Shown here piece after piece: positions 5,161 through 60,821 of a stretch of DNA of 62,886 bases. A program made the translations under genes and the position numbers. The notes beneath the pieces were generated by a model that did not search any database, was not told where the DNA came from, and worked only from the letters and a program-made list of their open reading frames with translations. The stretch lies in NCBI GenBank assembly GCA_021647785.1, contig JAKIUC010000023.1:1-62886 (forward strand), written 5' to 3'. Every line of letters starts with the position of its first letter. Within the stretch, counting starts at the first letter, position 1. The stretch comes from Melioribacteraceae bacterium. GTDB lineage: Bacteria > Bacteroidota > Ignavibacteria > Ignavibacteriales > Melioribacteraceae.

Positions 5161-5600
5161 AGTGTTTGGTCGGATACTTACACGCTTTGCGGTACAGGTG
5201 TAACAGATTTAATACAAATGAGTTATACGGTTTTTGTAATGAACAAAATTGTTCTATTGTTATCACAAGCTATCACCAACAATTTAGCAATGGAGCAATC
5301 CGCCACGGCGAATAGAATATTCATTCCTTCTAATAGATGTAAGTCTTTTGTTTCTATTGTATTATAGTATTACCACCTAAATCCTTCCCGCAAAAAGAGC
5401 GGGACAAGTTGTTTTTTTTTGTAAAGAAATAAAACACCAAAAACAATGACCAAACAACAAATAAATCTCAATACTCAAACACAAAACAACAAACAATAAG
5501 TTTTGAATTTAGGCGTTGGAATTTGGAATTTGTTTGTTTTTTAGGAATTGTGTTTTGGAATTTGCACCGTAGGAGCGATATGAATAACCGACCAAACACT
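5161..5600. repeat. 440-bp segment bounded by 13-bp inverted repeats
   Basis: AGTGTTTGGTCGG at 5161-5173 and its exact complement CCGACCAAACACT at 5588-5600. The segment contains the 42-bp dispersed repeat and a GCACCGTAGGAGCGATATG-like piece. It could be a non-autonomous element or a decayed insertion. Confidence 0.4.
5376..5417 (-). repeat. 42-bp dispersed repeat, copy 1
   Basis: Identical, in inverse orientation, to 58444-58485. It includes a CCCGCAAAAAGAGCGGG hairpin. Confidence 0.85.
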
Positions 5601-10504: not shown

Positions 10505-10712
10505 GGCTGAGTTCTAATGATTACAGCTTTTAATAGATAGTAATGTCGTGCCTATGGCACTTGGTTTTTATTATCATTTACTTTTACCATAATATCGTAC
10601 CTACGGTACTAAAAGCTCCATAGGTGCGATACTATGGTAAGCATCTACAATAAAACTATCCTTTAAGTGCCATAGGCACGACATTATTTGCTGTAATAAA
10701 TAGAACTCAGCC
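10505..10712. repeat. 208-bp palindromic MITE-like element, copy 1
   Basis: Three nested inverted repeats: ends GGCTGAGTTCT / AGAACTCAGCC; an inner 22-bp perfect pair beginning TAATGTCGTGCCTATGG; and a central imperfect pair (ACCATAATATCGTACC versus GGTGCGATACTATGGT). Almost the whole unit can fold into a branched hairpin. It encodes nothing. A second copy in the same orientation is at 18677-18921, on the other side of the three-gene surface module. Confidence 0.85.
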
Positions 10713-18491: not shown

Positions 18492-18996
18492 CTAGTGTCG
18501 TGTCAATTCTGTAAAGACGTACCATTGCTTAATAATTGTCTGTGAGACTCCTACAGAGAACTACTACGTAGTTCCAACAAAATTTGTTTTATGCTCTCTA
18601 CAAATATTCAACCCCTCTGGGGTTGTTTTTTATAGACCGCAGCGGTCGAATGTTTGCAGAAAATATTATTAATGATGGTTGAGTTCTAATGATTACAGCT
18701 TTTAATAGATAGTAATGTCGTGCCTACCTGTTCCGTTTCTTTTTGCGAAATGTCACTTGGTTTTTATTATCATTTACATTTACCATAATCCGCTGCGGCG
18801 GATTGTACCTACGGTATTAATAAGCTCCATAGGAGCGATACTATGGTAAGCATCTACAATAAAACTATACTTTAAGTGCCATAGGCACGACATTATTTGC
18901 CGTAATAAATAGAACTCAGCCTTAATGATAAACAACAACCACGTAATGGTTTAATGTAAAACAGCATACGATATGGCATAGATGATACGACACTAG
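18492..18996. repeat. Outer inverted repeat enclosing the MITE-like copy 2
   Basis: CTAGTGTCGTGTCA (18492-18505) faces TGATACGACACTAG (18983-18996), 13 of 14 matching. The GTGTCGTGTTA type end also occurs at the element 45797-45928. Confidence 0.45.
18677..18921. repeat. 245-bp palindromic MITE-like element, copy 2
   Basis: Closely matches 10505-10712 but carries two extra pieces totalling about 37 bp: a CTGTTCCGTTTCTTTTTGCG-like piece in the left arm and CCGCTGCGGCGGA near the centre. Both extra pieces resemble other small repeats, so this is a repeat with repeats inserted into it. Confidence 0.85.
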
Positions 18997-46545: not shown

Positions 46546-48105
46546 TTATTTCTTGAATAGTTTGTAATTGATACTATCTGTAAGTGCTTGCAGCGAGGCT
46601 TTAATAATATTTCCGGAAACACCAACTGTTGACCATGTACTATTATTATCACCAGATTCAATAAGTACACGAACCTTGGCTGCTGTTCCATCACCTTCAC
46701 CCAGTACACGCACTTTATAATCAATCAAATGTACATCATCCAATTCAGGATAGAATCTTCTTAGAGCTTTATGGAGAGCTTTATCAAGGGCATTTACAGG
46801 TCCTTCTCCATCTGCTGCTGTATGTTCAGTAATTCCATCAACTTCAACTTTTAAAACTGCTTCAGTATATTCCATTCCATTATCATCAAACATTACATTC
46901 ACTTTTGTGTAAACAACTTTGAAGAATGTCTTTAACTCATTAAGTTCATTTCTTAGCAGCATTTCAAATGACGCTTCTGCTCCATCAAACTGAAAGCCTT
47001 TATATTCAAGGTCTTTGAGGAATAGCACAAACTTTTTATTGAACTCTTTATCATCAGGTAATTCAATTCCAAGTTTTGCTGCTTTGTAACGGATGTTACT
47101 TTGACCAGATAAATCTGAAACAATAACTCTTTGTATATTTCCAACTATGGTTGGGTCGAGATGCTCATACATTCTACTATCTTTTAGAACAGAGCTAACA
47201 TGAATACCACCCTTATGAGCAAAGGCAGATTTACCCACAAATGGAGCACGAGTGTTTGGAGAAACATTCATCATTTCATAAACAAAATTAGAGAGTGATG
47301 TTAAGTTTGATAAATCGATATCTGTAAGAGTCTCTCTATTCATCTTTAATTTAAGATTTGGAATAATTGCACAAAGGTCAGCATTACCGCACCTTTCCCC
47401 CACTCCATTTGTTGTTCCTTGAACATGCGTTGCTCCTGCTTGCACTGCTGCAATGGTGTTTGCAATAGCCATACCGCCATCATTGTGTGCATGAATTCCA
47501 AGAGGTACAGTTAAATGTTTTGAAGTATCTTCTGTAATATCAAATATTTCATGCGGCAGTGTACCGCCATTTGTATCGCACAGAGTAACAGTATCGGCTC
47601 CACCTTTAACTGCTGCTTTGCACATAGTGAGTGCAAATTGAGGGTCATCCTTATATCCATCATAATAATGTTCAGCATCAAATATTACTCTACGTCCACT
47701 ATCCACAAGGTATTTAACAGATTTGTAAATTAATTCTTCATTTTGTTCATCTGTTAATCCAAGAGTTTTCTCAGAATGGAATCTCCAAGTCTTACCAAAT
47801 ATTGTGATAATTGGTGCCTCTGATGCGAGAAGTTTTTGTAAATTATTATCACTTTCAATTCTATCCGGATAACGTGCTGTTGAACCAAATGCACAAATCA
47901 ATGAGTTTTTTAATTTCAGATTTCTAACCTTATCGAAATATTCTTCATCTTTAGGATTACTACCTGGCCAGCCTCCTTCAATTATATCAATTCCAAATTC
48001 ATCTAATCTTTTTGTGATTTCCAACTTGTCATGTATTGATATATTTACACCTTCGCCTTGTGTACCATCGCGAAGTGTTGTATCGAATAATTCTATTTTT
48101 TTCAT
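46546..48105 (-). CDS. cimA: (R)-citramalate synthase
   Basis: A 519-residue enzyme joining acetyl-CoA and pyruvate to citramalate, the first step of the threonine-independent route to isoleucine. The ATG at 48105 gives the usual start KKIELFDTTLRDGTQGEGVN. Features: catalytic R/D in TTLRDGTQGEG, DIIEGGWPGSNPKDEEYF (characteristic of CimA, versus EAGFP in LeuA), the metal site in LGIHAHNDGGMAIANTIAAV, GTTNGVGERCGNADL, and a C-terminal allosteric LeuA-dimer domain (residues 400-519). It follows leuD by about 220 nt on the same strand. Confidence 0.92.
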   Translation of the reverse strand: MKKIELFDTTLRDGTQGEGVNISIHDKLEITKRLDEFGIDIIEGGWPGSNPKDEEYFDKVRNLKLKNSLICAFGSTARYPDRIESDNNLQKLLASEAPIITIFGKTWRFHSEKTLGLTDEQNEELIYKSVKYLVDSGRRVIFDAEHYYDGYKDDPQFALTMCKAAVKGGADTVTLCDTNGGTLPHEIFDITEDTSKHLTVPLGIHAHNDGGMAIANTIAAVQAGATHVQGTTNGVGERCGNADLCAIIPNLKLKMNRETLTDIDLSNLTSLSNFVYEMMNVSPNTRAPFVGKSAFAHKGGIHVSSVLKDSRMYEHLDPTIVGNIQRVIVSDLSGQSNIRYKAAKLGIELPDDKEFNKKFVLFLKDLEYKGFQFDGAEASFEMLLRNELNELKTFFKVVYTKVNVMFDDNGMEYTEAVLKVEVDGITEHTAADGEGPVNALDKALHKALRRFYPELDDVHLIDYKVRVLGEGDGTAAKVRVLIESGDNNSTWSTVGVSGNIIKASLQALTDSINYKLFKK

Positions 48106-48324
48106 TTTGTTTTTAAGATGTGAGCAATAAGATGTGAGACACAAGATTTGTAAACTAACTTACGCCTCATTCTTACTCTTAATCTTACTCCTAATCTTTT
48201 TTCTAAAATTATACTTTTATTTGTTGCTATGTTATTTCTAATCTTGCAAAGCAGGAAGATATCTTGTTTTTTTTGAAATATTTCTCATCCGCAAAACGGG
48301 TTCGAGATTACATACTTTCTAAAA

Positions 48325-48885
48325 CTATTCAATCATTCCAGTTTTTCTTGCATACTCAAAAAGTCCGCCAGCAGAGACAATGGGCAAAACATCACCAAGC
48401 GGATTGAGTTCAAATGTAACACCAGATGTTAAATTACTGATAGTATTATTTTCAATATCTATTTTTAATTCATCACCAGTTTTTATTTTATCGTTTAACT
48501 TACTTTGGCTTTCGTATGGTATAACAAAACCTCCATCAACCGAATTGCGATAGAATATTCTTGCATACGATTCTGCAACAATTACTTCTGCACCAGCTTT
48601 CATAAGGGCATACGGTGCATGTTCACGCGATGAACCACACCCATAATTTGAACCGCCAATAATTATTTTATATTCAGATTTAAACTCATCATCTTCAACA
48701 AAAGGTATATTCCCATTTGGCAAACCAGACTGTTCACTTGGCACACTTGATAGTGCAAACTTCCCATACATTTTTGCTTCGTTCTCATCATCCATACTAT
48801 ATACAAGGTGTTCAGCAGGTATAATTTGATCAGTATCAATATTATCCCCGAGAACAAAGGCTTTCCCTACAATTATACTTTCCAT
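48325..48885 (-). CDS. leuD: 3-isopropylmalate dehydratase small subunit
   Basis: A 186-residue swivel domain of isopropylmalate isomerase. Visible: LGDNIDTDQIIPAEHLVYSM near residue 12 and GGSNYGCGSSREHAPYALMK near 78, the substrate-recognition loop. The ~165-190 residue size, together with the 431-residue LeuC, points to the LeuC2/LeuD2-type (aconitase-homologue) isomerase, a group whose members can also act on citramalate, which fits the presence of CimA. It is 33 nt behind leuC on the same strand. Confidence 0.93.
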   Translation of the reverse strand: MESIIVGKAFVLGDNIDTDQIIPAEHLVYSMDDENEAKMYGKFALSSVPSEQSGLPNGNIPFVEDDEFKSEYKIIIGGSNYGCGSSREHAPYALMKAGAEVIVAESYARIFYRNSVDGGFVIPYESQSKLNDKIKTGDELKIDIENNTISNLTSGVTFELNPLGDVLPIVSAGGLFEYARKTGMIE

Positions 48886-48918
48886 TTTAATTCCATTCTA
48901 AATTTTATTTTATCGGTA

Positions 48919-50214
48919 CTACATCACATCACGTGGATCGGTGATTACTCCTTTAATAGCTGAAGCAGCAACAGTAAGTGGTGAAGCGAGATATACTTCT
49001 GCTTCTTTACTCCCCATTCTGCCAGGGAAGTTTCTATTTGTAGTGGAGATTGTAACATCCTTACCAACAGTTCTTCCAATTGTATCATCTGGTCCGCCAA
49101 GGCATGCTGCACATGATGATTTTGCAATAACAGCACCGGCATTCTCAAATATCTCTTGTAACGACTGACCTTTGTACATCTCGGTTGATAATTGCTTTGC
49201 TACTTCTGTACTTGCTGGTACAATGAATGTAGTAACTGCAACTTTCTTTCCAAAAAGAATTTTTGCAGCAAATTGGAAGTCTGCAATTTTCCCACCAGTA
49301 CATGAGCCGATGTATGCTTTTGTAATTGGTGTACCTTCAACTTCACGTACTGTAGCTTTATTATCAGGGCTATGCGGTTTTGCTACTACTGGTACTAGGT
49401 CTTCTGCATTATATACATATTCACTGTGATACTTTGCATCAGCATCACTGTAGAATTTATCAAAAGATTTGTTCGTTCTTTCGGCAAGATATTTTTCAGT
49501 AACTTCATCAACAGGTATTATCCCGCTCATACCGCCACCTTCAATAGCCATATTGCAAAGGGTCATTCTCTCATTCATTGAAAGTTCAAATACTGCTTCG
49601 CCATCAAATTCCATTGCACGGTAAGTTGCTCCATCAGTAGTAATATCACCCAATATTTGTAATATCATATCTTTAGCAGTTATATATTCCGGAAGCTTTC
49701 CGCTAAAAGTAAACTTTATTGTTTCCGGAACTTTTTCCCAAATTTTTCCTGTTCCAAGAATAAATGCTGCATCTGTATTGCCAACCCCTGTAGAAAACAT
49801 TCCAAATGCTCCCGAAGTACAAGTGTGTGAGTCAGTTCCAATTAAAACTGTTCCAGGAATATTATATCCTTCTTCAGCCAGAGCAAGGTGACAAACTCCT
49901 TTATACCGTTCAGTTCCAACATCGTAATAATTATCAATTTTATATTCTTCAGCAAAATCACGTAGTATATCAATATTTCTATTCGCATGTTTATTTGCAG
50001 TAAAGATATAGTGATCAGGAAATATTACTAGCTTCTCCTTATCCCATACTTTTGCATTTTTTCCAAATTCGTTTTTCCAAATTCCAATTGTGGGAGGTCC
50101 GCAAACATCGTGTGTCATAAGAACATCAACATTAAGCCAAATATTATCTCCAGGCTTAACACTCTCTTTATCAGCAGATTTTGCAAGAATTTTTTCAGTA
50201 ATTGTCATTCCCAT
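48919..50214 (-). CDS. leuC: 3-isopropylmalate dehydratase large subunit
   Basis: A 431-residue [4Fe-4S] enzyme. The cluster ligands are in GTDSHTCTSGAFGMFSTGVG near residue 123, AYIGSCTGGKIADFQFAA near 307 and SSCAACLGGPDDTIG near 367. The 420-430 residue length is that of the archaeal-type LeuC2 subfamily, not the ~470-residue E. coli-type. Start MGMTITEKILAKSADKES follows leuA by 12 nt. Fe-S dependence means the enzyme is sensitive to oxygen. It is expected to isomerise both isopropylmalate and citramalate. Confidence 0.95.
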   Translation of the reverse strand: MGMTITEKILAKSADKESVKPGDNIWLNVDVLMTHDVCGPPTIGIWKNEFGKNAKVWDKEKLVIFPDHYIFTANKHANRNIDILRDFAEEYKIDNYYDVGTERYKGVCHLALAEEGYNIPGTVLIGTDSHTCTSGAFGMFSTGVGNTDAAFILGTGKIWEKVPETIKFTFSGKLPEYITAKDMILQILGDITTDGATYRAMEFDGEAVFELSMNERMTLCNMAIEGGGMSGIIPVDEVTEKYLAERTNKSFDKFYSDADAKYHSEYVYNAEDLVPVVAKPHSPDNKATVREVEGTPITKAYIGSCTGGKIADFQFAAKILFGKKVAVTTFIVPASTEVAKQLSTEMYKGQSLQEIFENAGAVIAKSSCAACLGGPDDTIGRTVGKDVTISTTNRNFPGRMGSKEAEVYLASPLTVAASAIKGVITDPRDVM

Positions 50215-50226
50215 TAATACTTCTCC

Positions 50227-51804
50227 TTAAATACCACCGTTAACTTTTTCAACTTCTACCTCTTTTTTACTTCTCTCAAAGCGTTCTTTTTTATTTATTG
50301 CTTGAATATATGCTTTAGCACTCGCTTCAATAGTATCAGTTGATACACCAACACCAGTATATGAGCGGTTGTTCTTTCTAATTCTAACTGCTACCTCGCC
50401 AAGTGCATCTCTACCAGCAGTAACAGAGCGGACACGATAAGATTCCACTGTTGGTTTTTTATCGAGTGCCCTATCTATAGCATTAAACAAAGCATCTACA
50501 GGACCATCACCAGTAGCAGAGTCTTCAACTATTTCACCATCTCTTTTTATTCTTACAGTAGCAGTCGGAATTGTTGATGAACCACCAAAGACGTGCATAT
50601 ACTCTAAATTAAATATTTCATCATTTCTATTTTTTGAATCCCCCATTAGAATTCGTAAATCATCATCATAGACTTCTTTCTTTTTATCAGCCAATTTCGT
50701 AAAAGCATCATAAACTTTAATTAATTCGTCACCTTCCAATGTATAACCAAGTTCCTGTAGCCTTGCCTTCAAACCATGGCGTCCGGAATGTCTTCCAAGA
50801 ACAATTTTTGTTTTCTGAAGACCAACAGTTTCCGGAGTCATTATTTCATAGGTTTCACGGTTCTTCAACATACCATCTTGATGAATTCCGGATTCGTGAG
50901 CAAAGGCATTTTCACCAACAATAGCTTTGTTTGGCTGAATAATAATTCCAGTATAACCAGAGACTAATTTTGAAGTGTTTATAATCTCTTTCGTATTAAT
51001 TTTGCTTTCAATATCAAAAATATCTTTGCGAACTTTAAGAGCCATTACAATCTCTTCAAGTGAAGCATTACCAGCACGCTCACCAATTCCATTTACTGTA
51101 CACTCAATTTGACGTGCACCATTTTCAATTCCTGAAATAGAATTTGCTACTGCAAGACCAAGATCGTTGTGGCAATGTACACTAATAATTATATTATTAA
51201 TATTCTTTACATTATTTTTAAGATAAGCAATCTTCTCTCCAAATTCTTTTGGCATAGTGTAACCAGTAGTATCAGGAATATTAATTGTAGTTGCACCAGC
51301 TTCTATTGCTGCTTCCACAACTTCTACGAGATAGTTTAAATCGGTACGACCAGCATCTTCAGCAGAGAATTCAACATCATCAACAAATGTCTTTGCATAC
51401 TTTACCATATCGTAAGACATTTTAATTACTGTTTCTCTTTTATCTGCAAGAGTTTTACCATATCGGTCATCACCAAATTTTCCGAGAATGTGGTAATCTG
51501 AAGTACTGGAGAACGTATGAATTCTTTTTTTCTCTCCATTCTTAATTGCATTGTATGCAGCTTTTATATCTATCTCTTTTGAACGAGCAAGTGCTGCAAC
51601 TGTAACACCTACTTCGTTTGATATCCTTTCAACTGCATCAAACTGCTCGGGTGATGATACGGGAAATCCAGCTTCAATTATATCAACCTTAAGTTTTTCA
51701 AGTTGTTTAGCAATTTCTACTTTTTCAGAAACACTTAGTGATGCACCGGGCGATTGCTCACCATCGCGCAATGTTGTATCAAATATTATTAACTGATTAT
51801 TCAT
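50227..51804 (-). CDS. leuA: 2-isopropylmalate synthase
   Basis: A 525-residue enzyme condensing acetyl-CoA with 2-oxoisovalerate, the committed step of leucine synthesis. Features: IFDTTLRDGEQSPGASLSVS near residue 6, DIIEAGFPVSSPEQFDAVER near 39 (LeuA-type, versus EGGWP in CimA), metal site VHCHNDLGLAVANSISGIEN near 207, CTVNGIGERAGNASLEE near 232, and the C-terminal leucine-binding regulatory domain at about 390-510, so feedback inhibition is likely. 16 nt behind leuB. Confidence 0.96.
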   Translation of the reverse strand: MNNQLIIFDTTLRDGEQSPGASLSVSEKVEIAKQLEKLKVDIIEAGFPVSSPEQFDAVERISNEVGVTVAALARSKEIDIKAAYNAIKNGEKKRIHTFSSTSDYHILGKFGDDRYGKTLADKRETVIKMSYDMVKYAKTFVDDVEFSAEDAGRTDLNYLVEVVEAAIEAGATTINIPDTTGYTMPKEFGEKIAYLKNNVKNINNIIISVHCHNDLGLAVANSISGIENGARQIECTVNGIGERAGNASLEEIVMALKVRKDIFDIESKINTKEIINTSKLVSGYTGIIIQPNKAIVGENAFAHESGIHQDGMLKNRETYEIMTPETVGLQKTKIVLGRHSGRHGLKARLQELGYTLEGDELIKVYDAFTKLADKKKEVYDDDLRILMGDSKNRNDEIFNLEYMHVFGGSSTIPTATVRIKRDGEIVEDSATGDGPVDALFNAIDRALDKKPTVESYRVRSVTAGRDALGEVAVRIRKNNRSYTGVGVSTDTIEASAKAYIQAINKKERFERSKKEVEVEKVNGGI

Positions 51805-51820
51805 AAAAGTACCTCAAACA

Positions 51821-52918
51821 CTATAGAGTGAATACACTCTCTCTGTTTTCATTGTAGATTATATCAAAGTTTTTAATTATCATATCTGCCATTCTATCTG
51901 TAGTAACAACATTGCCATCATCAAGATTTATATCGGCAGTTCTGTAACCATGGTCAAGAGTTTTCTCAATAGCTTTATCAATTAGAATTGCAGCCTCCTG
52001 TAATCCGAATGATAAGTCAAACATCATCCCAACAGAAGCTATCATTGCAATTGGGTTAGCTTTGTTCTCGCCAGCTATATCTGGGGCACTTCCATGCACA
52101 GGCTCGTAAAGTGCATACTTATCTCCAAGACTTGCTGATGGTAGCATACCAAGGCTGCCGGTAATCATTCCAGCAATATCACTAATAATATCACCAAATA
52201 AGTTTGATGTAACAATCACATCAAATTGTTTTGGGTCTCGTACAACTTGCATTGCGGTATTGTCAACATACATATTACTTAGTTCAACATCCGGATATTC
52301 TTTGCTGACTTCTTCAACAACCTTTCTCCAAAACTGAGATACTTCAAGCACATTTGCCTTATCAACAGAAGTTAATATTTTCTTCCTTTTCTGGGCTACC
52401 TTAAAGGCTTGATGAGCAATACGTTCAATTTCATATTTCTCATAAACCATAGTATTGTAGCCTTTATTCTCATCATATCCGCGTGGTTCACCGAAATAAA
52501 TTCCTCCGGTAAGTTCACGAAATACTACAAAGTCAGTTCCAATAATAGCACTCTCTTTTAAAGAAGAAGAATTAACAAATGATGGATATACCTTTGCTGG
52601 ACGGATGTTTGTAAAAAGTCCTAAAGATTTTCGCAATTTCAAAAGTGCTGCTTCTGGTTTTAAATGATGTTCAAGGTCTTCCCATTTATAGCCGCCAACC
52701 GCACCAAGAAGAACAGCATCCGATGAATAACAAAGTTCAATTGTTTCATCTGTTAGTGGAGTTCCGTGTGCATCGTATGAGCAACCACCCATTAAACTCT
52801 CAGAAGTTTCAATAGTTAAATCATATTTAGCAGCAACATGATGCATTAACTTTACTGCTGCATTCATAACTTCAACGCCTATACCATCGCCGGGTAATAG
52901 AGCAACTTTCTTTTCCAT
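51821..52918 (-). CDS. leuB: 3-isopropylmalate dehydrogenase
   Basis: A 365-residue NAD-dependent beta-decarboxylating dehydrogenase. Motifs: LLPGDGIGVEVMNAAVKLM at the N-terminus, SDAVLLGAVGG near 70, the R-rich substrate loop LRKSLGLFTNIRPAKV near 95, and the signature NMYVDNTAMQVVRDPKQFDV, then TSNLFGDIISDIAGMITGSL near residues 217-250, and GSAPDIAGENKANPIAM near 278. It can also handle erythro-methylmalate from citramalate. 5 nt from ilvC. Confidence 0.96.
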   Translation of the reverse strand: MEKKVALLPGDGIGVEVMNAAVKLMHHVAAKYDLTIETSESLMGGCSYDAHGTPLTDETIELCYSSDAVLLGAVGGYKWEDLEHHLKPEAALLKLRKSLGLFTNIRPAKVYPSFVNSSSLKESAIIGTDFVVFRELTGGIYFGEPRGYDENKGYNTMVYEKYEIERIAHQAFKVAQKRKKILTSVDKANVLEVSQFWRKVVEEVSKEYPDVELSNMYVDNTAMQVVRDPKQFDVIVTSNLFGDIISDIAGMITGSLGMLPSASLGDKYALYEPVHGSAPDIAGENKANPIAMIASVGMMFDLSFGLQEAAILIDKAIEKTLDHGYRTADINLDDGNVVTTDRMADMIIKNFDIIYNENRESVFTL

Positions 52919-52923
52919 TTTAC

Positions 52924-53928
52924 TTAATCCTCATCATTTTTATTTTTAACCCAACTCATCATACTACGTAACTTTTTACCAATAACTTCAATTGGATGTT
53001 CACTATTCTCTTTACGAAGTCTGTTCATATTTACTTTATCGCCATTAACTTCGTCAACAAATTCCTTAGCAAAACTTCCATCTTGCACCCTTTTTAATGC
53101 TGCTCTCATTGCTTCTTTCGATTCTGCATTAATAACCTTTGGACCAACAACATAGCCGCCATACTCAGCAGTATCACTAACAGAATAATTCATGCGTGAT
53201 AATCCACCTTCGTAATAGAGGTCAACAATCAATTTCATTTCGTGCATCACTTCAAAGTAAGCAAGTTCTTCAGGATACCCGGCTTCAGTAAGTACTTCAA
53301 AGCCGGCTTTAATTAAATCGGCAGAACCGCCACAAAGAACGGCTTGTTCACCGAATAAATCTGTTTCAGTTTCATTTTTAAAATTAGTTTCAATTACACC
53401 AGCTTTAGTACCACCAATACCTTTTGCCCATGCAAGAGCCATCTCTTTAGTGTTGCCAGAGTAATCGTTATGAATTGCAATTAAACATGGAACTCCATTC
53501 CCTTCTCGATAAGTTCTGCGTACTAAATGTCCAGGACTTTTAGGTGCAATCATCATCACATTAATTTTATCTGAAGGGACTATTTGTTTGTAGTGAATAT
53601 TGAAACCATGAGCAAATACAAGTGTATTCCCATCTTTTAGATTTGATGATATCTGTTCGTCGTAAACTCTTTTTTGATCTTGATCAGGAAGTAAAACCAT
53701 AACAACATCAGCCCACTTAGATGCTTCAGCAATTTCCATCACATTCATTCCTAAGTCAGTAGCTTTCTTCCACGAGTTGCCATCTTTTCTTAAGCCAACA
53801 ACTACATTCATTCCACTCTCTTTTAAGTTTAGTGAATGTGCATGCCCTTGGCTGCCAAACCCAAGTACCGCAATTTTTTTATCTTTTAATACATCCAACG
53901 ATGCATCACTATCATAATACGCTTTCAT
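52924..53928 (-). CDS. ilvC: Ketol-acid reductoisomerase
   Basis: A 334-residue class I enzyme converting acetolactate and acetohydroxybutyrate to dihydroxy acids. The Rossmann loop is [20 protein letters not shown] at 19-38, with [13 protein letters not shown] next, whose Arg and Ser suggest NADPH preference. Metal ligands are in [20 protein letters not shown] near 189. The single knotted domain (not duplicated as in class II) ends at residue 330. It lies 11 nt downstream of ilvN. Confidence 0.96.
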
Positions 53929-53939
53929 TTAATGCTTCC

Positions 53940-54452
53940 TTATTTTTTATTTACATATTCATTTTCAGGTCTAATTTGTTCACCTCGTTTTAGTGCAACA
54001 GTTCCGGAACGTGCCATCTCCTTTATTCCAAAGGGCATAAGCACATTTATTATTGCATCTATTTTATCCGGAGGTCCGGTAACTTCAAGCATTATGCTTC
54101 TGTTGTTTATATCAACAATTTTACCGCGAAAGATATCGTTTATATTTTTAATTTCTTCGATGCTACCCTTCTGAAAACTTACTGTAATTAAAGCTAATTC
54201 ACGCTCTGTTCTTGCCTGTCCAGTAAGTTCAGTAACTTTAAGAGTATCTATTAATCTATTTAATTGCTTTACAATTTGATCAACTAATTGTTTATCACCC
54301 GAAGTTACAATCGTCATTCTTGAAACCCCTCGCTGCTCTGTTTCACCAATTGCAATACTGTGGATGTTAAAACCTTTTGCACTAAACATTGTTGCTACTC
54401 TATCAAAAGCACCAAATTGATTTTCAACTAATATTGATATTGTATGTTTCAT
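53940..54452 (-). CDS. ilvN: Acetolactate synthase small (regulatory) subunit
   Basis: A 170-residue regulatory subunit. An N-terminal ACT domain (HTISILVENQFGAFDRVATM, FSAKGFNIHSIAIGETEQRG) that binds valine, then a C-terminal domain (ELALITVSFQKGSIEEIKNI, GPPDKIDAIINVLMPFGIKE) that activates the catalytic subunit. The long, two-domain form is like E. coli IlvH. Its ATG overlaps the TAA of ilvB (TAATG). Confidence 0.95.
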   Translation of the reverse strand: MKHTISILVENQFGAFDRVATMFSAKGFNIHSIAIGETEQRGVSRMTIVTSGDKQLVDQIVKQLNRLIDTLKVTELTGQARTERELALITVSFQKGSIEEIKNINDIFRGKIVDINNRSIMLEVTGPPDKIDAIINVLMPFGIKEMARSGTVALKRGEQIRPENEYVNKK

Positions 54453-56167
54453 TATTTATTCCCCTTCGGATTTTTTCTTTTATGAATCATATCTGAAATA
54501 GATGAACCAGCTGGTACCATTGGAAATACTAAGTCTTCTTTAGCAACTTTGAATTCAACCAATACTGGTCTATCATTTATAGCAAATACTTTATTAAGAA
54601 TGTCATCAACCTCATCCTGCTTCGATATTGAAAATGATTCAACTCCAAGTGCGGTTCCAATTTCAGTAAATACTGGATTACTATCATCCAAATCGGTGAA
54701 ACTATATTTCTCTGCATGGAAAAGTTCTTGCCATTGCCTTACCATTCCAAGAAAAGAATTATTCATAATAAAAAATTTAATAGGTAATTTATGATAAGCT
54801 GCAGTAACAAGCTCCTGCATATTCATCTGGAAACCACCATCACCACTAATTGAAATTATTGGTCTATCCTTAATTGCAAATGCAGCACCAAGTGCTGCCG
54901 GAACCGAGAATCCCATTGTGCCTAATCCACCACTACTAACATGGGAACGCGGATTATTAAATTTAATATATTGTGCTATCCACATTTGATGTTGACCCAC
55001 ATCAGAGACAATAATAGCTTCACCATTTATCTTTTCAGATATCTTTTCAAAAACAAATTGTGTACGTAATTGATTATCAGGTCTTTTATATTCAAGAGGA
55101 CACTCTGCTCTCCATTCATCAATTTTATTCCACCACTCATCTTCTCTTGGTTTATCAGAAAGTTCATCTAATAATCCACTCATTATTATTTTTGCATCAC
55201 CAACAATAGGTAAATCAACAAGTACATTTTTATCAATTGCAGTTGGGTCAATATCAATATGTATTTTATAAGCATCCTTTGCAAATGTATCTGTCTTCCC
55301 TGTTACTCTATCATCAAAGCGTGCACCAACGGCTATAAGCACATCGCAGTTGTTCACTGCCTGATTTGCATAATACGTTCCGTGCATTCCAAGCATACCA
55401 AGAAACTGCGGGTCTGTTCCTGGGAATGAACCCAAGCCCAACAAAGTGTTTGTTACTGGAATATTATTCTTATGTGCAAACTCTGTTAGCTCCTTTGCTG
55501 CATTGGACATTACAACACCACCACCAACATACAGCAATGGACGTTTAGCTTCTCTAATAATTTTTGCTGCTTTTTTTATCTGATTTTTATGACCCTTTAG
55601 TGTTGGCTTATACCCACGTATTTCAATTGTTTTAGGATATTCATATTCACATTCAGCAGCAATTACATCCTTTGGTAAATCAACAAGTACAGGACCTGGT
55701 CTCCCTGTAGAAGCAATGTAAAATGCTTTCTTTATTGTTGATGCCATATCTTTTACATCTTTTACTAAAAAATTATGCTTTGTAATTGGACGTGTAATTC
55801 CAACAATATCTGCTTCTTGAAATGCATCATTACCAATTAGTGGCGATGGAACCTGACCAGTAAATACAACCATTGGAATTGAATCCATATATGCATTTGC
55901 AATTCCGGTTACAGTATTTGTAGCACCAGGACCCGATGTAACTAATACAACGCCAACCTTTCCGGAAACACGTGCATAACCATCAGCTGCATGAGTTGCA
56001 CCTTGCTCGTGCCGAGTTAGAATATGCTCGAGAAAATCGACATCGTATAATTTTTCATAAAGCTTTATTGTAGCACCACCTGGATAACCAAATATTTTAT
56101 CTACACCTTCTTCTCGTAGTGATTCAAAAAATATATCTGCACCACTTAATGTTTTTTTCTTTGTCAT
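54452..56167 (-). CDS. ilvB: Acetolactate synthase large (catalytic) subunit
   Basis: A 571-residue thiamine-diphosphate enzyme making acetolactate and acetohydroxybutyrate. Seen: FGYPGGATIKLYEKLYDVDF near residue 25, the catalytic Glu in TRHEQGATHAADGYARVSGK near 55, FAD-binding middle domain, and the ThDP/Mg motif SISGDGGFQMNMQELVTAAY with NN after it at about 440-470. Full length for AHAS I/III. It is 22 nt downstream of ilvD and coupled to ilvN. Confidence 0.96.
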   Translation of the reverse strand: MTKKKTLSGADIFFESLREEGVDKIFGYPGGATIKLYEKLYDVDFLEHILTRHEQGATHAADGYARVSGKVGVVLVTSGPGATNTVTGIANAYMDSIPMVVFTGQVPSPLIGNDAFQEADIVGITRPITKHNFLVKDVKDMASTIKKAFYIASTGRPGPVLVDLPKDVIAAECEYEYPKTIEIRGYKPTLKGHKNQIKKAAKIIREAKRPLLYVGGGVVMSNAAKELTEFAHKNNIPVTNTLLGLGSFPGTDPQFLGMLGMHGTYYANQAVNNCDVLIAVGARFDDRVTGKTDTFAKDAYKIHIDIDPTAIDKNVLVDLPIVGDAKIIMSGLLDELSDKPREDEWWNKIDEWRAECPLEYKRPDNQLRTQFVFEKISEKINGEAIIVSDVGQHQMWIAQYIKFNNPRSHVSSGGLGTMGFSVPAALGAAFAIKDRPIISISGDGGFQMNMQELVTAAYHKLPIKFFIMNNSFLGMVRQWQELFHAEKYSFTDLDDSNPVFTEIGTALGVESFSISKQDEVDDILNKVFAINDRPVLVEFKVAKEDLVFPMVPAGSSISDMIHKRKNPKGNK

Positions 56168-56189: not shown

Positions 56190-57869
56190 CTATTTAATTT
56201 TAAGAACTGCACCATTACTTGCAGATGTAACCATTCTTGAATATCTCGCTAAATAGCCTTTTTTGATTTTAGGTTCAAAGTCTGGAATAGACTTAAGCCT
56301 TTCACTTATTTCTTTATCTGTTAATTCAACTTCTAAAATTTTATTTGGAATATCAATAGAAATTATATCTCCATTTTTTAATGCTGCAATTGGTCCTTTT
56401 TCAGCGGCTTCAGGTGAAACATGACCAATACATGCTCCTCTTGTTGCACCCGAGAACCGACCATCTGTTAAAAGAGCAACTTTGTCTCCAAGTTTCATTC
56501 CCATAATTTCACTAGTTGGTGCAAGCATTTCCGGCATACCGGGTCCACCTTGCGGTCCTTCATATCTGATAACAATAACATCACCTTCATTAATTTCTTT
56601 ACCTCTAATTCCGGATAGAGCCTCATCTTGCGAGTTGTAAATTTTAGCAGGTCCCTTGTGAACCAACATCTTAGAATCAACCGCACCTGTTTTAACTATT
56701 GCACCTTCAGGTGCAAGATTACCAAAAAGAACCGCCAACCCACCTTTGTGTGAATATGGGTCTTCAATACTTTTGATAACATTAGCATCTTTTATTTCAG
56801 CATTTTTAATATTTTCGCCAAGAGTTTTTCCGGTAACAGTTAACCTATCTAAATAAAGAGTATTAGGCTTTTTTGAAATCTCATTTAATATTGCTGAAAT
56901 ACCACCTGCCCTATCAACATCCTCCATATGTACAAATGGTGTTGCCGGGCTAACTTTACAAATGTATGGAGTTCTATCAGCAATTTCATTTAATTCTTTT
57001 AAGTCAAATTCTACTCCAGCTTCAATAGCAATTGCAATTGTGTGAAGAATTGTATTTGTACTTCCACCCATTGCCATATCAAGTGTAAAGGCATTCATAA
57101 ATGTTTCGCGAGTTAAAATATCGGATGGTTTAATATCATCTTTTACAAGATTCATTAATTGTTTTGCAGCTACTATTGCAAGTTCTTTTCTTTTTGGGTC
57201 AACTGCTAAAGTTGTTCCATTGCCAGGCAAAGCTAAGCCAAGAGCTTCCATCAAGCAATTCATAGAATTTGCAGTAAACATTCCTGAACAAGAACCACAA
57301 CCCGGACAGCTTACAGTCTCTAATTCTAACAATTCATCTTCTGAAATTTCCCCATTGCTGAATTTCCCTACACCTTCAAAAACTGTAGATAGATCAGTTT
57401 TAGTTCCATCAGCAGTCTCCCCAGCTTCCATAGGTCCGCCGGAAATAAATATTGTTGGAATATTAATTCTGGCAGCAGCCATTAACATACCCGGAACAAT
57501 TTTATCGCAATTAGTAATGCAAATAATTCCATCTAAACGATGAGCTTCCACAACAGTTTCAACACTATCTGCAATTAATTCTCTACTTGGCAGAGAGTAA
57601 CGCATCCCGATGTGACCCATTGCAATTCCATCATCCACACCAATTGTGTTAAACTCAAACGGAACACCACCAGCCTCGCGAATGGTTTCTTTTACTAATT
57701 TTCCAAACTCCTGTAAATGGACATGCCCTGGAACTAAATCTATATATGAATTTACAACTCCAATAAATGGCTTGTTAAAATCATCATCATTTTTTATTGC
57801 ACCAGTTGCTCGTAGCAAACTTCTATGCGGAGCTTTTTCAAAACCTTTTTTAACTAAATCCGATCTCAT
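56190..57869 (-). CDS. ilvD: Dihydroxyacid dehydratase
   Basis: A 559-residue Fe-S enzyme dehydrating 2,3-dihydroxy acids to 2-oxo acids. Cluster cysteines are in [20 protein letters not shown] near 115 and [20 protein letters not shown] near 188; [20 protein letters not shown] near 465 is also conserved. GAGG is 5 nt before the ATG. It is the first gene of the operon, 111 nt behind the Leu/Ile/Val-rich leader ORF. No ilvA or ilvE is in the window, so isoleucine here probably comes through CimA and the last transamination is encoded elsewhere. Confidence 0.96.
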
Positions 57870-57912
57870 ATTATCCTCAGAATCCTATACTAAGATAAAT
57901 TTTACAGTTCAG

Positions 57913-58029
57913 GTTAATCCTGAAATCAATTATTTTAAAATATGAAAGTGTTTGAAATGATATCGGGATTAACTAATTATTTAGCCTACGAGTACGAGAC
58001 CCAGTAGGCTCAGAATAATAATACCGAGC
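57913..58029 (-). promoter_or_regulatory. Candidate attenuator hairpins before ilvD
   Basis: On the minus-strand RNA, GCUCGG (58029-58024) can pair with CUGAGC (58013-58008), or AGCCUAC (58010-58004) with GUAGGCU (57989-57983); the two share 58008-58010 and exclude each other. A further pair (57966-57973 with 57913-57920, GTTAATCC type) lies between them and ilvD. There is no U-run after any hairpin, so a classical intrinsic terminator is not shown; control of ribosome access or Rho-dependent termination is possible. Confidence 0.5.
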
Positions 58030-58142
58030 AGGTTAATAATATCTAAAGAAAGGAGACTTAATTTATTTTGCAAAGTAGTATAGTTTACAGCTACCCCAGT
58101 TGTTGTTGAACCATATTCCATATTTTTACTTCTATTTTGCAT
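57981..58142 (-). CDS. Leu/Ile/Val-rich leader peptide of the ilv-leu operon
   Basis: A 53-residue ORF from ATG 58142 (a second ATG at 58121 gives 46). Residues 28-53 contain 11 Leu, 5 Ile and 2 Val out of 26 (LSLLSLDIINLLGIIILSLL then GLVLVG). It ends 111 nt before ilvD and its last codons lie in the stems of mutually exclusive hairpins. Such peptides let ribosome stalling on scarce Leu/Ile/Val tRNA control the operon in Proteobacteria and Actinobacteria. The longer frame to 58214 would begin upstream of the proposed promoter. The alternative is a small one-helix membrane protein. The initiation site is weak. Confidence 0.6.
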   Translation of the reverse strand: MQNRSKNMEYGSTTTGVAVNYTTLQNKLSLLSLDIINLLGIIILSLLGLVLVG

Positions 58143-58164
58143 AATTTCTAAATTTGTTTTGCAA

Positions 58165-58194
58165 AATGTAGTTATTGAATAATTATTTGTCAAG
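58165..58194 (-). promoter_or_regulatory. Candidate promoter of the ilv-leu operon
   Basis: TTGACA (58194-58189) and TACATT (58170-58165) separated by 18 nt, about 22 nt before the leader ATG at 58142. Fits a sigma-70-type consensus (perfect -35, 4/6 at -10). In this phylum other promoter rules also apply, so moderate confidence. Confidence 0.45.
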
Positions 58195-58488
58195 ATATTT
58201 GTTGATATATCCATATTTGCATCAAAATACGTATGTTATATTTATTTTAACTGTATATATATACGGTACTCTTTTTAGATTTTGTGGAGATTATTTTTTA
58301 TAATAAAAAAAGAATAGAATAAAGGGACATAAAGAATTGTAAGAACTGATGATAACATATGGCGATAAATCGCAAATATTAGATTCAAGACATTAGATAC
58401 AAGACAAAAGCAAAAGATTTTATTGAAATAAAAATCTTAACATAAAAAACAACTTGTCCCGCTCTTTTTGCGGGAAGGATTTAGGTTA
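58195..58488. other. Spacer between ilv leader and IS element
   Basis: No gene. It contains GTATATATATAC near 58252, fragments of low complexity, and the dispersed repeat 58444-58485 ending exactly at the left flank of the IS. Confidence 0.6.
58444..58485 (+). repeat. 42-bp dispersed repeat, copy 2
   Basis: Exact reverse complement of 5376-5417, including the CCCGCTCTTTTTGCGGG hairpin. The IS left end follows 3 nt later. Confidence 0.85.
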
Positions 58489-58587
58489 TTAATTCCAATC
58501 TAAAACTGACCACTTTTCCAAGTGAAAACTGACCACTAAAAAATCAATAACTTAAACCTCGAGAATAAAAACTTGAGGAGGAACAAG

Positions 58588-60039
58588 GTGATCAGCATGG
58601 AAGATTGGGTAACCATTCAAACATTAAAGAAGCACAACAACTCGCTTAGTAACCGAGAGATAGGCAGGCTCTTGGGTCTAAGTCATAACACAGTAAAACG
58701 AGCCATAGAGAATGAGTCTCCACCAGAATATGAGCGTACAAAAAAGATAAGTGCCTCATTGCTGCCATTTGAAGAAGTAATCTTTAAGATGTTAAATGTG
58801 AATAAGTTCAAGGGTTCACGTATATTAGAAGAGATTGTTTCAAAAGGGTACAGTGGAAGCAAGAGTACATTTTATTACTATTATCAAAGAATAAAGCAAA
58901 AGCCACAGAAGCATTATAAACCATACGAGACTTCTCCCGGTGAGCAGTCTCAGTTTGATTGGTCTCCGTATACAGTAACTATAGATGGTAAACTAGCAAA
59001 GGTTATAATCTTTTCGTATATCAATGGTTTTAGTAGGTATGAAGTTTTAGAAGCATCTGTAACAGAAAATCAAGGTTCAGTCTTTGAGGCTCTTGAAAAA
59101 GGAATAATAGAAAGTCGTGGAGTTCCTTCTAGAATACAGACAGATAATGCAAAGGTATTCGTAAAGAACCCATCAAAGAATAATTTTCAGTGGAACGAAA
59201 GATATTTACATTTCTGTGGTCATTATGGTTTTGAACCGAGTCGTTCATTGCCAGTTCATCCATGGAGCAAGGGGAAGGTAGAGAAGCCTTTTCAATATGT
59301 AGAGAATCATTTTATAGCGGGTAGTTCATTTGAGAGTTTTGAGGATTTCTTGAGCAAATTGAAAAAATTTCAAAAGAAAGTTAATGCAAGAGTTCACTCT
59401 TCAACAAAAACAGCACCTATTGATTTAATATCAAGAGAGGAAGATTCTTTTACTGATTTACCCAACACAAGGTATGTAGGAATAAAGGAAGAGATAAGAA
59501 AAGTATCACTTGATTGTTTAATATCCTTTAATGGTAATCGTTATTCTGTTCCTTGGCATTTTGCTGGGAAACAAGTTTGGATAAGAATATCGAAAGGATA
59601 TTTTTTGGAAGTATATTCACAATCGAACAAACTTGTAGCTTCTCACCAACTACTACTTGAAAAAGGAAAAGTTGTAATTGAGAATGCACACTATAGAGGA
59701 AACAATCAAAGAGGTGGTAATTTTGAAAGATTAAAGCAAAAGTTCTTGGAATCATTCCCATCTGAAGAAGAGTTCGTAGAAAAGCTAAAAGCACAGAAAA
59801 GAATAAATGCCAATCATCAACTCTCCAAAATCATTGAGTTAATAGAGCTTTACCGGAAAGAAGATTTTTACGAAGCGATAAACAAAGCTCTGGTTTATAA
59901 TGTTTTCCACTCATCCTTTATTGCTGGATATCTTGAAAAAAACTTTAAGCAGACTTTTAAGGTTAGTGCAATTAAAATAGGGTGTAACTACAAGAAAGAA
60001 AACATTAAACGAGAGTTAAAAGAATATCAATTATTTTAA
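58588..60039 (+). CDS. istA: IS21-family transposase IstA
   Basis: A 483-residue DDE transposase. GTG at 58588 is chosen as start because AGGAGG lies 6 nt before it; an ATG follows 9 nt later. N-terminal helix-turn-helix (LSNREIGRLLGLSHNTVKRA) binds the ends; the integrase core starts near residue 115 (EQSQFDWSPYTVTIDGKLAK), with the second Asp in IQTDNAKVFV and the Glu in HPWSKGKVEKPFQYVENHF. A C-terminal Mu-type domain follows. No frameshift or stop is seen. It works with IstB, 20 nt downstream. Confidence 0.95.
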   Translation: MISMEDWVTIQTLKKHNNSLSNREIGRLLGLSHNTVKRAIENESPPEYERTKKISASLLPFEEVIFKMLNVNKFKGSRILEEIVSKGYSGSKSTFYYYYQRIKQKPQKHYKPYETSPGEQSQFDWSPYTVTIDGKLAKVIIFSYINGFSRYEVLEASVTENQGSVFEALEKGIIESRGVPSRIQTDNAKVFVKNPSKNNFQWNERYLHFCGHYGFEPSRSLPVHPWSKGKVEKPFQYVENHFIAGSSFESFEDFLSKLKKFQKKVNARVHSSTKTAPIDLISREEDSFTDLPNTRYVGIKEEIRKVSLDCLISFNGNRYSVPWHFAGKQVWIRISKGYFLEVYSQSNKLVASHQLLLEKGKVVIENAHYRGNNQRGGNFERLKQKFLESFPSEEEFVEKLKAQKRINANHQLSKIIELIELYRKEDFYEAINKALVYNVFHSSFIAGYLEKNFKQTFKVSAIKIGCNYKKENIKRELKEYQLF

Positions 60040-60059
60040 GCAAGCAAGGAGCATTTACA

Positions 60060-60821
60060 ATGAATAAAGAATTAAAGACTGACAATAATAGCAGAATAGA
60101 TGAATACTTAAAAATATTAACTCTTCATAAAATTGGAGAAATATATAAAGTAGAATCAGAAAAAGCAGCTAAAACTAAACTAGGTTATACAGAATATTTA
60201 CTAAAATTACTTGAAGAACAAGTACTAACTAAAATAGAACGCTCTATAAACCGCAAAATGCAAATAGCGGCTTTTCCTCAAATTAAACGTTTGGAAGAGT
60301 TTGATTTTTCTTTTCAACCTCAAATAGATGAGAAGATTATTAGAGAGTTAGCCAATCTTAACTTCTTGGAAGATGGGAAAAATGTGTTGTTCTTAGGTCC
60401 TCCTGGAGTTGGGAAAACTCATCTTGCTATTGCTCTTGGAATTAAAGCAATAGAACAGAGAAAACGTGTGCTTTTCTATTCTGCTGAAAAACTTACCGAA
60501 GAACTTGCTGCTGCTGAAGTTTCTGGAATACTAAACACAAAATTAGAATCTCTATCAAGGCTTGATTTGCTCATTATTGATGAACTTGGATACCTGTCTT
60601 TAACTAATCAAACGGCAAAACTCTTCTTCCAACTGGTATCTAAAAGATATGAAAGAGGTTCTATTATTATTACTTCTAATAAACCCTTTGAAGACTGGGG
60701 TGAAATATTTAATGATGAAGTTGTAGCATCTGCTATTCTTGATAGATTGCTTCATCACTCATATCCGTTTTTTATTAACGGGAAAAGTTTTAGGTTGAAA
60801 AATATGAGTAAATCTGACTAA
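60060..60821 (+). CDS. istB: IS21-family helper ATPase IstB
   Basis: A 253-residue DnaC-like AAA+ ATPase that assembles on target DNA and stimulates IstA. Walker A is FLGPPGVGKTHLAIALGIKA near residue 118, Walker B LDLLIIDELGYLSLTNQTAK near 178 and ITSNKPFEDWGEIFNDEVVA contains the sensor region. The N-terminal 80 residues are the helical targeting domain. Intact and full length (about 250). AAGGAG precedes the ATG. Confidence 0.96.
   Translation: MNKELKTDNNSRIDEYLKILTLHKIGEIYKVESEKAAKTKLGYTEYLLKLLEEQVLTKIERSINRKMQIAAFPQIKRLEEFDFSFQPQIDEKIIRELANLNFLEDGKNVLFLGPPGVGKTHLAIALGIKAIEQRKRVLFYSAEKLTEELAAAEVSGILNTKLESLSRLDLLIIDELGYLSLTNQTAKLFFQLVSKRYERGSIIITSNKPFEDWGEIFNDEVVASAILDRLLHHSYPFFINGKSFRLKNMSKSD

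Follow-up and report, generated by a model that had tools for sequence, protein, structure and literature searches.

A conserved leader RNA before the ilv-leu operon of Melioribacteraceae and related bacteria, probably a ribosome-sensed folding switch

Leader-peptide control has been described mainly for Proteobacteria, Firmicutes and Actinobacteria. In ilv, leu, his and trp attenuators of the Escherichia coli type, a codon-rich leader ORF lies before the first gene, and competing helices overlap its regulatory codons. The locus described here, in a 62,886-nucleotide stretch of DNA that we call the window (contig JAKIUC010000023.1 of the Melioribacteraceae assembly GCA_021647785.1), has the same product-codon-rich leader ORF, the same kind of competing, codon-overlapping helices and the same position before the first gene of its operon. 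It differs in lacking a local terminator and in having an extra helix, P1, whose 5′ side consists of leader codons and which encloses two hairpins, H1 and H2. The window element works like a leader-peptide attenuator, but we do not class it as a transcription attenuator, because the window was tested for an intrinsic terminator and none was found. Our sequence comparison suggests that the ribosome itself probably senses branched-chain amino acid shortage, apparently without the usual terminator.

By description, the locus can also be likened to the leucine-rich ilv-leu attenuator peptides of Staphylococcus and Listeria and to the Corynebacterium ilvBNC leaders, in which a branched-chain leader peptide or uORF precedes ilv genes (available text of PMC5794164, PMC5864092, PMC11857589 and PMC10272879). 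According to the available text of PMC8632094, the ilvD (WRC-18-2) motif is confined to Veillonella and ranks as a weak riboswitch candidate; as described there it too is a structured RNA before ilvD. Bacteroid-trp (RF01692), in the available text of PMC2864571 a candidate cis-regulatory RNA of Bacteroidetes whose name points to a trp operon, differs in that the window matches no Rfam family: a search with the 4227 families of Rfam 15, which include the T-box, riboswitches and known leaders, gave no match at gathering score. At 20 relatives' loci, the sole Rfam match was a SAM riboswitch (genome G076, L021 667-549) on the opposite strand, upstream of the ilvD region. The available text of PMC2864571, PMC7366714, PMC8632094, PMC2965389 and PMC4833913 describes no such leader switch, and a literature search mostly outside subscription journals gave no published account of such a leader in Ignavibacteria among the matches listed.

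The leader and its operon lie on the minus strand. The leader ORF has 53 codons plus a stop (58142-57981; ATG 58142-58140, TAA 57983-57981), and an alternative in-frame ATG at 58214 would lengthen it to 77 amino acids. Its last 26 residues are LSLLSLDIINLLGIIILSLLGLVLVG, of which 18 are Leu, Ile or Val (binomial P about 5e-6 with an assumed background of 26%), and 111 nt separate its stop from the ilvD ATG at 57869. These features are present as the preliminary description gave them, as is the complete operon that it placed downstream: ilvD (56190-57869) is followed by ilvB, ilvN, ilvC, leuB, leuA, leuC, leuD and cimA (46546-56167), where the gene names are our own reading of the translations. 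Among the 46 genes of the window, ilvD alone has an upstream ORF that passes a screen for at least 13 Leu/Ile/Val in the last 20 residues and an end 60-180 nt ahead of the gene. The best ilvD matches among named records, at 86-88% identity, come from two Ignavibacteriales metagenome-assembled genomes.

Upstream of the leader, a TTGACA hexamer resembling a -35 element (58188-58193) and a TACATT hexamer resembling a -10 element (58165-58170), both on the minus strand, match 10 of 12 promoter positions and form the best of 5 promoter-like sites in 501 bases, where 3.4 are expected. The preliminary description had proposed this site with an 18-nt spacer; the site is there, but our scan gives a spacer of 17 nt. 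A loose version of the pattern, TTGA[CT]-N(15-20)-TAnnnT, precedes the leader in all 53 relatives, compared to a mean of 5.3 and a maximum of 12 in mononucleotide shuffles. An in-frame ATG lies behind the -10 in 48 of the 53, at a median distance of 20 nt.

The leader is conserved across the order. Of 164 genomes searched, 60 have an ilvD match (E up to 1e-150), and in 57 of these the ilvD start is readable (G084, G225 and G237 have none). In 55 of the 57, ilvD is preceded by a leader ORF whose final 20 residues include at least 10 Leu/Ile/Val; the exceptions, G184 and G185, have no such leader upstream of ilvD. With the stricter threshold of at least 13 in 20, the leader is present in 53 of 58 genomes (the 57 plus G052) versus 0 of 34 trpE or hisG upstream regions. 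The set of 53 genomes that we analyzed further leaves out G052, which belongs to another family of the class and has a differing H2 sequence, G262 (11/20, H2 motif not seen) and G282 (early end of the leader frame). In this set the leader stop lies 96-138 nt before the ilvD start.

Codon usage in the leader tails, measured over the last 16 codons of the 53 leaders, departs from that of 10 window genes. The Leu codon CTA has a share of 0.50 versus about 0.04-0.10 (0.10 in the 10 window genes) and the Val codon GTG 0.41 versus 0.08, while the Leu codon TTA is reduced to 0.04 from 0.35 and the Ile codon ATA to 0.06 from 0.29. A share of this bias may stem from RNA pairing and not from tRNA charging.

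Comparison with relatives divides the leader RNA into pairing strands, all on the minus strand. Strand 1 (58023-58055) comprises leader codons that form the 5′ side of P1, and the stretch CGGTATTA at its 3′ end (58026-58019) has strand 2 as an alternative partner. The stop-codon hairpin H1, AGCCTAC/GTAGGCT (57983-58010), is seen in the swap test described below and in the predicted fold, which extends it by pairing the Ile ATT codons at 58019-58014 with AATAAT at 57981-57976, at and after the stop. H2 consists of strand 2 as its 5′ arm (AGTTAATCCCGATATCAT, 57957-57974), a loop (57930-57956) that has no G in the window copy, and strand 3 as its 3′ arm (TTGATTTCAGGATTAACC, 57912-57929); both arms are identified by the swap test and by column counts. 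Strand 4 (57882-57913), the 3′ side of P1 by the swap test, can alternatively form a local hairpin with strand 3 (3:4, TTCAGG-ATTAA-CCTGAA, 57908-57924), and beyond it lies TCTGAGGA (57874-57881) with the Shine-Dalgarno-like GAGG of ilvD. Pairing 1:2 competes with H2 and with one end of P1, whereas H1, H2 and P1 can coexist and are the strongest set by pairing energy in the ribosome-free state.

We examined these pairings by exchanging strands between genera (31 genera, 20 draws, 2000 permutations each, with genera taken as independent). Four helices had better energies with their own than with swapped partners, with 0 of 2000 permutations reaching the observed value in every draw: H2 (2:3; −17.5 versus −15.0 kcal/mol), P1 (1:4; −19.7 versus −15.3), H1 (−11.4 versus −8.0) and 1:2 (−9.2 versus −7.6). 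No clear excess was seen for 1:5, 1:3, 2:4, two combinations of H1 with strand 4, or 1:H1 (medians 305-1858 of 2000), and 3:4 and 4:5 were weak (medians 40 and 48). The 2:5 pairing, intended as a control, was also in excess (median 7, maximum 31). Against dinucleotide shuffles, p fell below 0.05 for H2 in 49 of the 53 genomes, P1 in 35, H1 in 28, 1:2 in 14 and 4:5 in 5.

Column counts agree for H2, in which 9 of 13 pairs have changes on both sides (score 0.232 versus 0.150 shuffled). For 1:2 the score is 0.132 versus 0.084 shuffled, with a one-column slide nearly equal (0.131), and pairs changed on both sides are not in excess (2 versus 1.9 in shuffles); by eye, 1:2 covaries in G258 (CGGTAT with ATACCG) and in G264, G269 and G272 (GGAATT with AATTCC). 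We also considered whether H2 might act as DNA, as an operator, and not as an RNA stem. This was rejected, as one pair is U-G in 22 of 53 genomes, a pairing compatible with an RNA helix. For P1 the swap test took the place of column alignment, in which codon insertions misalign strand 1.

The preliminary description had drawn two hairpins around the stop that share bases 58008-58010. GCTCGG (58029-58024) can indeed pair with CTGAGC (58013-58008), and AGCCTAC (58010-58004) with GTAGGCT (57989-57983); the overlap and the second hairpin, our H1, are real, but the first is weakly supported. Unguided RNAalifold on the 53-sequence alignment returned four elements: a helix joining leader codons to the region before ilvD, the hairpin at the stop, H2, and a hairpin where the first one had been drawn (58029-58008). 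We rejected the last of these as a main element: it is in the consensus, yet 17-185 of 1000 permutations reach its observed energy. The better-supported competing helices, from covariation in relatives, are 1:2 versus 2:3, plus 1:4, and they overlap the regulatory codons. Taken together, these comparisons indicate that environmental relatives have conserved the leader RNA as a folding switch, and the check across Ignavibacteria suggested at the outset finds both the leader (55 of 57) and covarying stems (31 genera).

P1 beats shuffles in 35 of 53 genomes and in 21 of 31 genera (median z −2.46), and its end lies 10-51 nt before the ilvD start codon. The window's own P1 does no better than shuffled sequence (p 0.22); of the five members of its genus, three fail at 0.05, G001 and G004 included. 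As a whole, the window region 58060-57867 has a better folding energy than 196 of 200 dinucleotide-shuffled versions (z −2.40), and in the relatives the stop-to-start stretch is strongly folded when free of ribosomes (median z −3.1). In the minimum-energy fold of the window, leader TCTTTAGA (58049-58042) pairs with TCTGAGGA (57881-57874), which contains the ilvD Shine-Dalgarno sequence. The 7 nt that follow the 3′ strand of P1 have a T fraction of 0.47-0.66, versus 0.29 over the whole stop-to-start stretch; where positions could be placed (32 of 53), it is 0.594 versus 0.446 at random positions (0 of 5000). By our count, 16 of 31 genera have on average at least 4 T in these 7 nt, and T-runs of at least 5 occur near the P1 end in 14 of 53 genomes, none of them in the window's genus.

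We hypothesize that the element is a switch in which the ribosome, by translating the leader peptide, senses branched-chain amino acids, and in which a stall prevents P1 and keeps the operon on; we give this reading a probability of about 0.55. RNA polymerase would start a few bases past the -10 site, near 58158, and a ribosome would then translate the 53-codon leader. On the nascent RNA, the shorter 1:2 helix would form first and may act as a pause or timing structure. With ample charged Leu-, Ile- and Val-tRNA, the ribosome would reach the stop and depart, H1 and H2 would fold and place strand 1 beside strand 4, and P1 would close the structure directly upstream of ilvD, turning expression off. 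Strand 1 corresponds to the leader codons just ahead of the Leu/Ile/Val run plus its start; because the run begins inside strand 1, a ribosome stalled for want of Leu, Ile or Val would cover the strand that both P1 and 1:2 need. In this stalled state H2 may form but P1 could not, and the operon would be expressed. Shut-off may occur by termination at the U-rich tract behind P1 where one is present, and in the window's copy by leader codons burying the ilvD Shine-Dalgarno sequence. What the comparison supports is the conserved leader, its codon bias and the covarying H1, H2, 1:2 and 1:4; we infer the direction, in which a stall blocks P1 and means on, from the logic of biosynthetic operons.

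One alternative is a classical transcription attenuator with 2:3 as antiterminator, a local 3:4 terminator and P1 as secondary, which we consider unlikely. The local 3:4 hairpin has p below 0.05 in 21 of 53 genomes (0.04 in the window), in several Chlorobia-like relatives it is terminator-like with a T-rich tail, and the trp and his leaders of the relatives do have strong local terminators. In these leaders, too, a short ORF carries a run of the cognate amino acid, and the genomes are in part the same: in a comparison set of 20 genomes that includes the window's own, Trp-rich ORFs precede trpE at all 17 loci that were read out of 18 supplied (L210 from the own genome, L200-L216 from relatives, with L217 not counted), and His-rich ORFs precede hisG in 17 of 17 (L225 from the own genome, L220-L236 from relatives, L223 being doubtful). 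With the same script, however, strong local terminators were found behind 17 of 17 trp and 16 of 17 his leaders but behind no more than 3 of the 53 ilv leaders (shuffled sequences give 0-1 of 53); in genomes common to the sets, our count is 13 of 13, 13 of 14 and 1 of 15. The window itself has none: a scan of 57800-58300 for a hairpin with a U-run gave 0 where 0.1 were expected, in agreement with the missing U-run noted earlier. Moreover, 3:4 is weaker than P1 (−8.7 versus −19.7 kcal/mol) and barely covaries.

A translational attenuator, in which P1 or the 4:5 hairpin would keep the ilvD ribosome-binding site covered as long as no ribosome is stalled on the leader, seems to us rather unlikely. 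The pairing of TCTTTAGA with the Shine-Dalgarno region in the window's predicted fold and the short distance from the P1 end to the start codon speak for it, and masking strand 1 in the window opens the site slightly, from 0.24 to 0.34. Across the 53 genomes, however, masking does not open the site on average (11 more open, 17 less), and on this ground we rejected a general burial of the ilvD start by P1. The 4:5 Shine-Dalgarno hairpin was rejected as a general output as well, with its 5 of 53 against shuffles, its weak swap result and a median z of −0.21 (15% below −2), and 1:5 shows no excess. The ribosome-access control suggested earlier thus has no general support, but it may apply to the window's own predicted fold. 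It is improbable that control depends on Rho or an RNase, with the G-poor H2 loop or the P1 duplex as an entry or cleavage site bared when the ribosome leaves: the loop in relatives is 53% A and 6% G, with no structure beyond shuffles, and the window lacks a U-run terminator, but loop C is just 14.5% and the ribosome-free stop-to-start stretch is strongly folded. The opposite sign, with P1 as an on state that frees the ilvD start and a stalled ribosome as repressor, appears very improbable. In some relatives (G166 and G222, as judged by eye), strand 4 could pair with the Shine-Dalgarno region when strand 1 leaves it free, but biosynthesis would then be repressed in shortage, and 4:5 has no general support.

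Returning to the stall-on switch, we looked for the element in more distant relatives. The same ilvD subfamily is preceded by leaders in further families of the phylum (f29, f31, f38, f45, f46), in f5 and f14, which are two more families of the class, and in some records whose titles name Calditrichia, KSB1, Marinimicrobia, Chlorobiaceae or Chloroflexi; the element is missing from three f31 loci (L083-L085). A record titled Stygiobacter electus strain 09-Me, a cultivable relative, has the leader as well (L142). P1 is also present in 11 hand-picked loci, nine of them titled Calditrichota-type (own −20.1 versus swapped −17.1, 17 of 5000 permutations), and is weak, at −11 to −13 kcal/mol, in four of the 11; this set was picked by eye and omits L141 (no upstream DNA) as well as L164 and L170, whose leaders are distant or of a different kind. 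Chlorobia-like ilvD leaders (L086-L099, L162) share the Val/Ile/Leu leader end and the 2:3 stem, but several have a terminator-like 3:4 and a T-rich tail: at least 5 T in 9 nt follow the strand-3 hairpin at 11 of 15 loci (L087 and L162 being identical in sequence), and L096, L098 and L099 clearly show a 3:4 form of 8 pairs, while others fold a different hairpin. In an ilvD subfamily of about 45% identity, nine of 11 judged loci have no such leader (L105-L109, L112, L116, L118 and L119, where the ilvD starts were extrapolated from weak matches), L117 has one, and L111 has a distant ORF only, which we take as chance; L110 and L113-L115, with no ilvD match, were excluded from the judged loci.

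A tentative reading, which we put a little below even odds, is that Ignavibacteria and Calditrichota-type bacteria share a family of switches in which the regulatory codons form the 5′ strand of a long-distance off-helix, P1, that encloses two further hairpins and is blocked by a stalled ribosome, with the sensor kept and the shut-off module exchanged between lineages. If so, the exchanged modules would be a U-tract behind P1, a hidden Shine-Dalgarno sequence and, in Chlorobia-like genomes, a local terminator. The order, known by name almost entirely from metagenome assemblies, appears to regulate ilv, trp and his alike through leader peptides. Its trp and his leaders have ordinary terminators and its ilv leader a different, conserved architecture, which offers a natural comparison of one kind of sensor with different outputs, and the ilv leader could serve as a marker for branched-chain regulation in these genomes.

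Several minor observations concern other leaders and copies. Five Marinimicrobia records (L140, L148, L149, L154, L176) carry another leader type, for example one ending in LLILVIIGLAVQIA, 139-146 nt before ilvD, and their downstream sequence also differs. In the Chloroflexi records L188, L189, L196 and L198, Leu/Ile/Val-rich ORFs (10-11 of 20) precede ilvD and are followed by plain T-run hairpins, as judged by eye. No leader copies were found in the plasmid collection that we searched. The window's own genome has a second copy of the stretch from leader stop to ilvD start (L009 2163-2278; G000:C48:11162-11277), 81% identical, which lacks the Leu/Ile/Val codons, is followed by ATG TAG and looks like a decayed duplicate. 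A second leader copy in L010 (2193-2327; G002:C40, contig end) ends in NLLGIIILSLLSILLIG, with no ilvD after it. Within the window, an IstA/IstB-like pair, of IS21 type by our reading, lies divergently on the plus strand at 58573-60821 and begins 380 bp upstream of the leader promoter. An identical hairpin, TCCCGCAAAAAGAGCGGGA, occurs at two distant sites of the window (5386-5404 and 58457-58475), and the short palindrome GTGCCATAGGCAC recurs with the same tail at 10667-10679 and 18876-18888.
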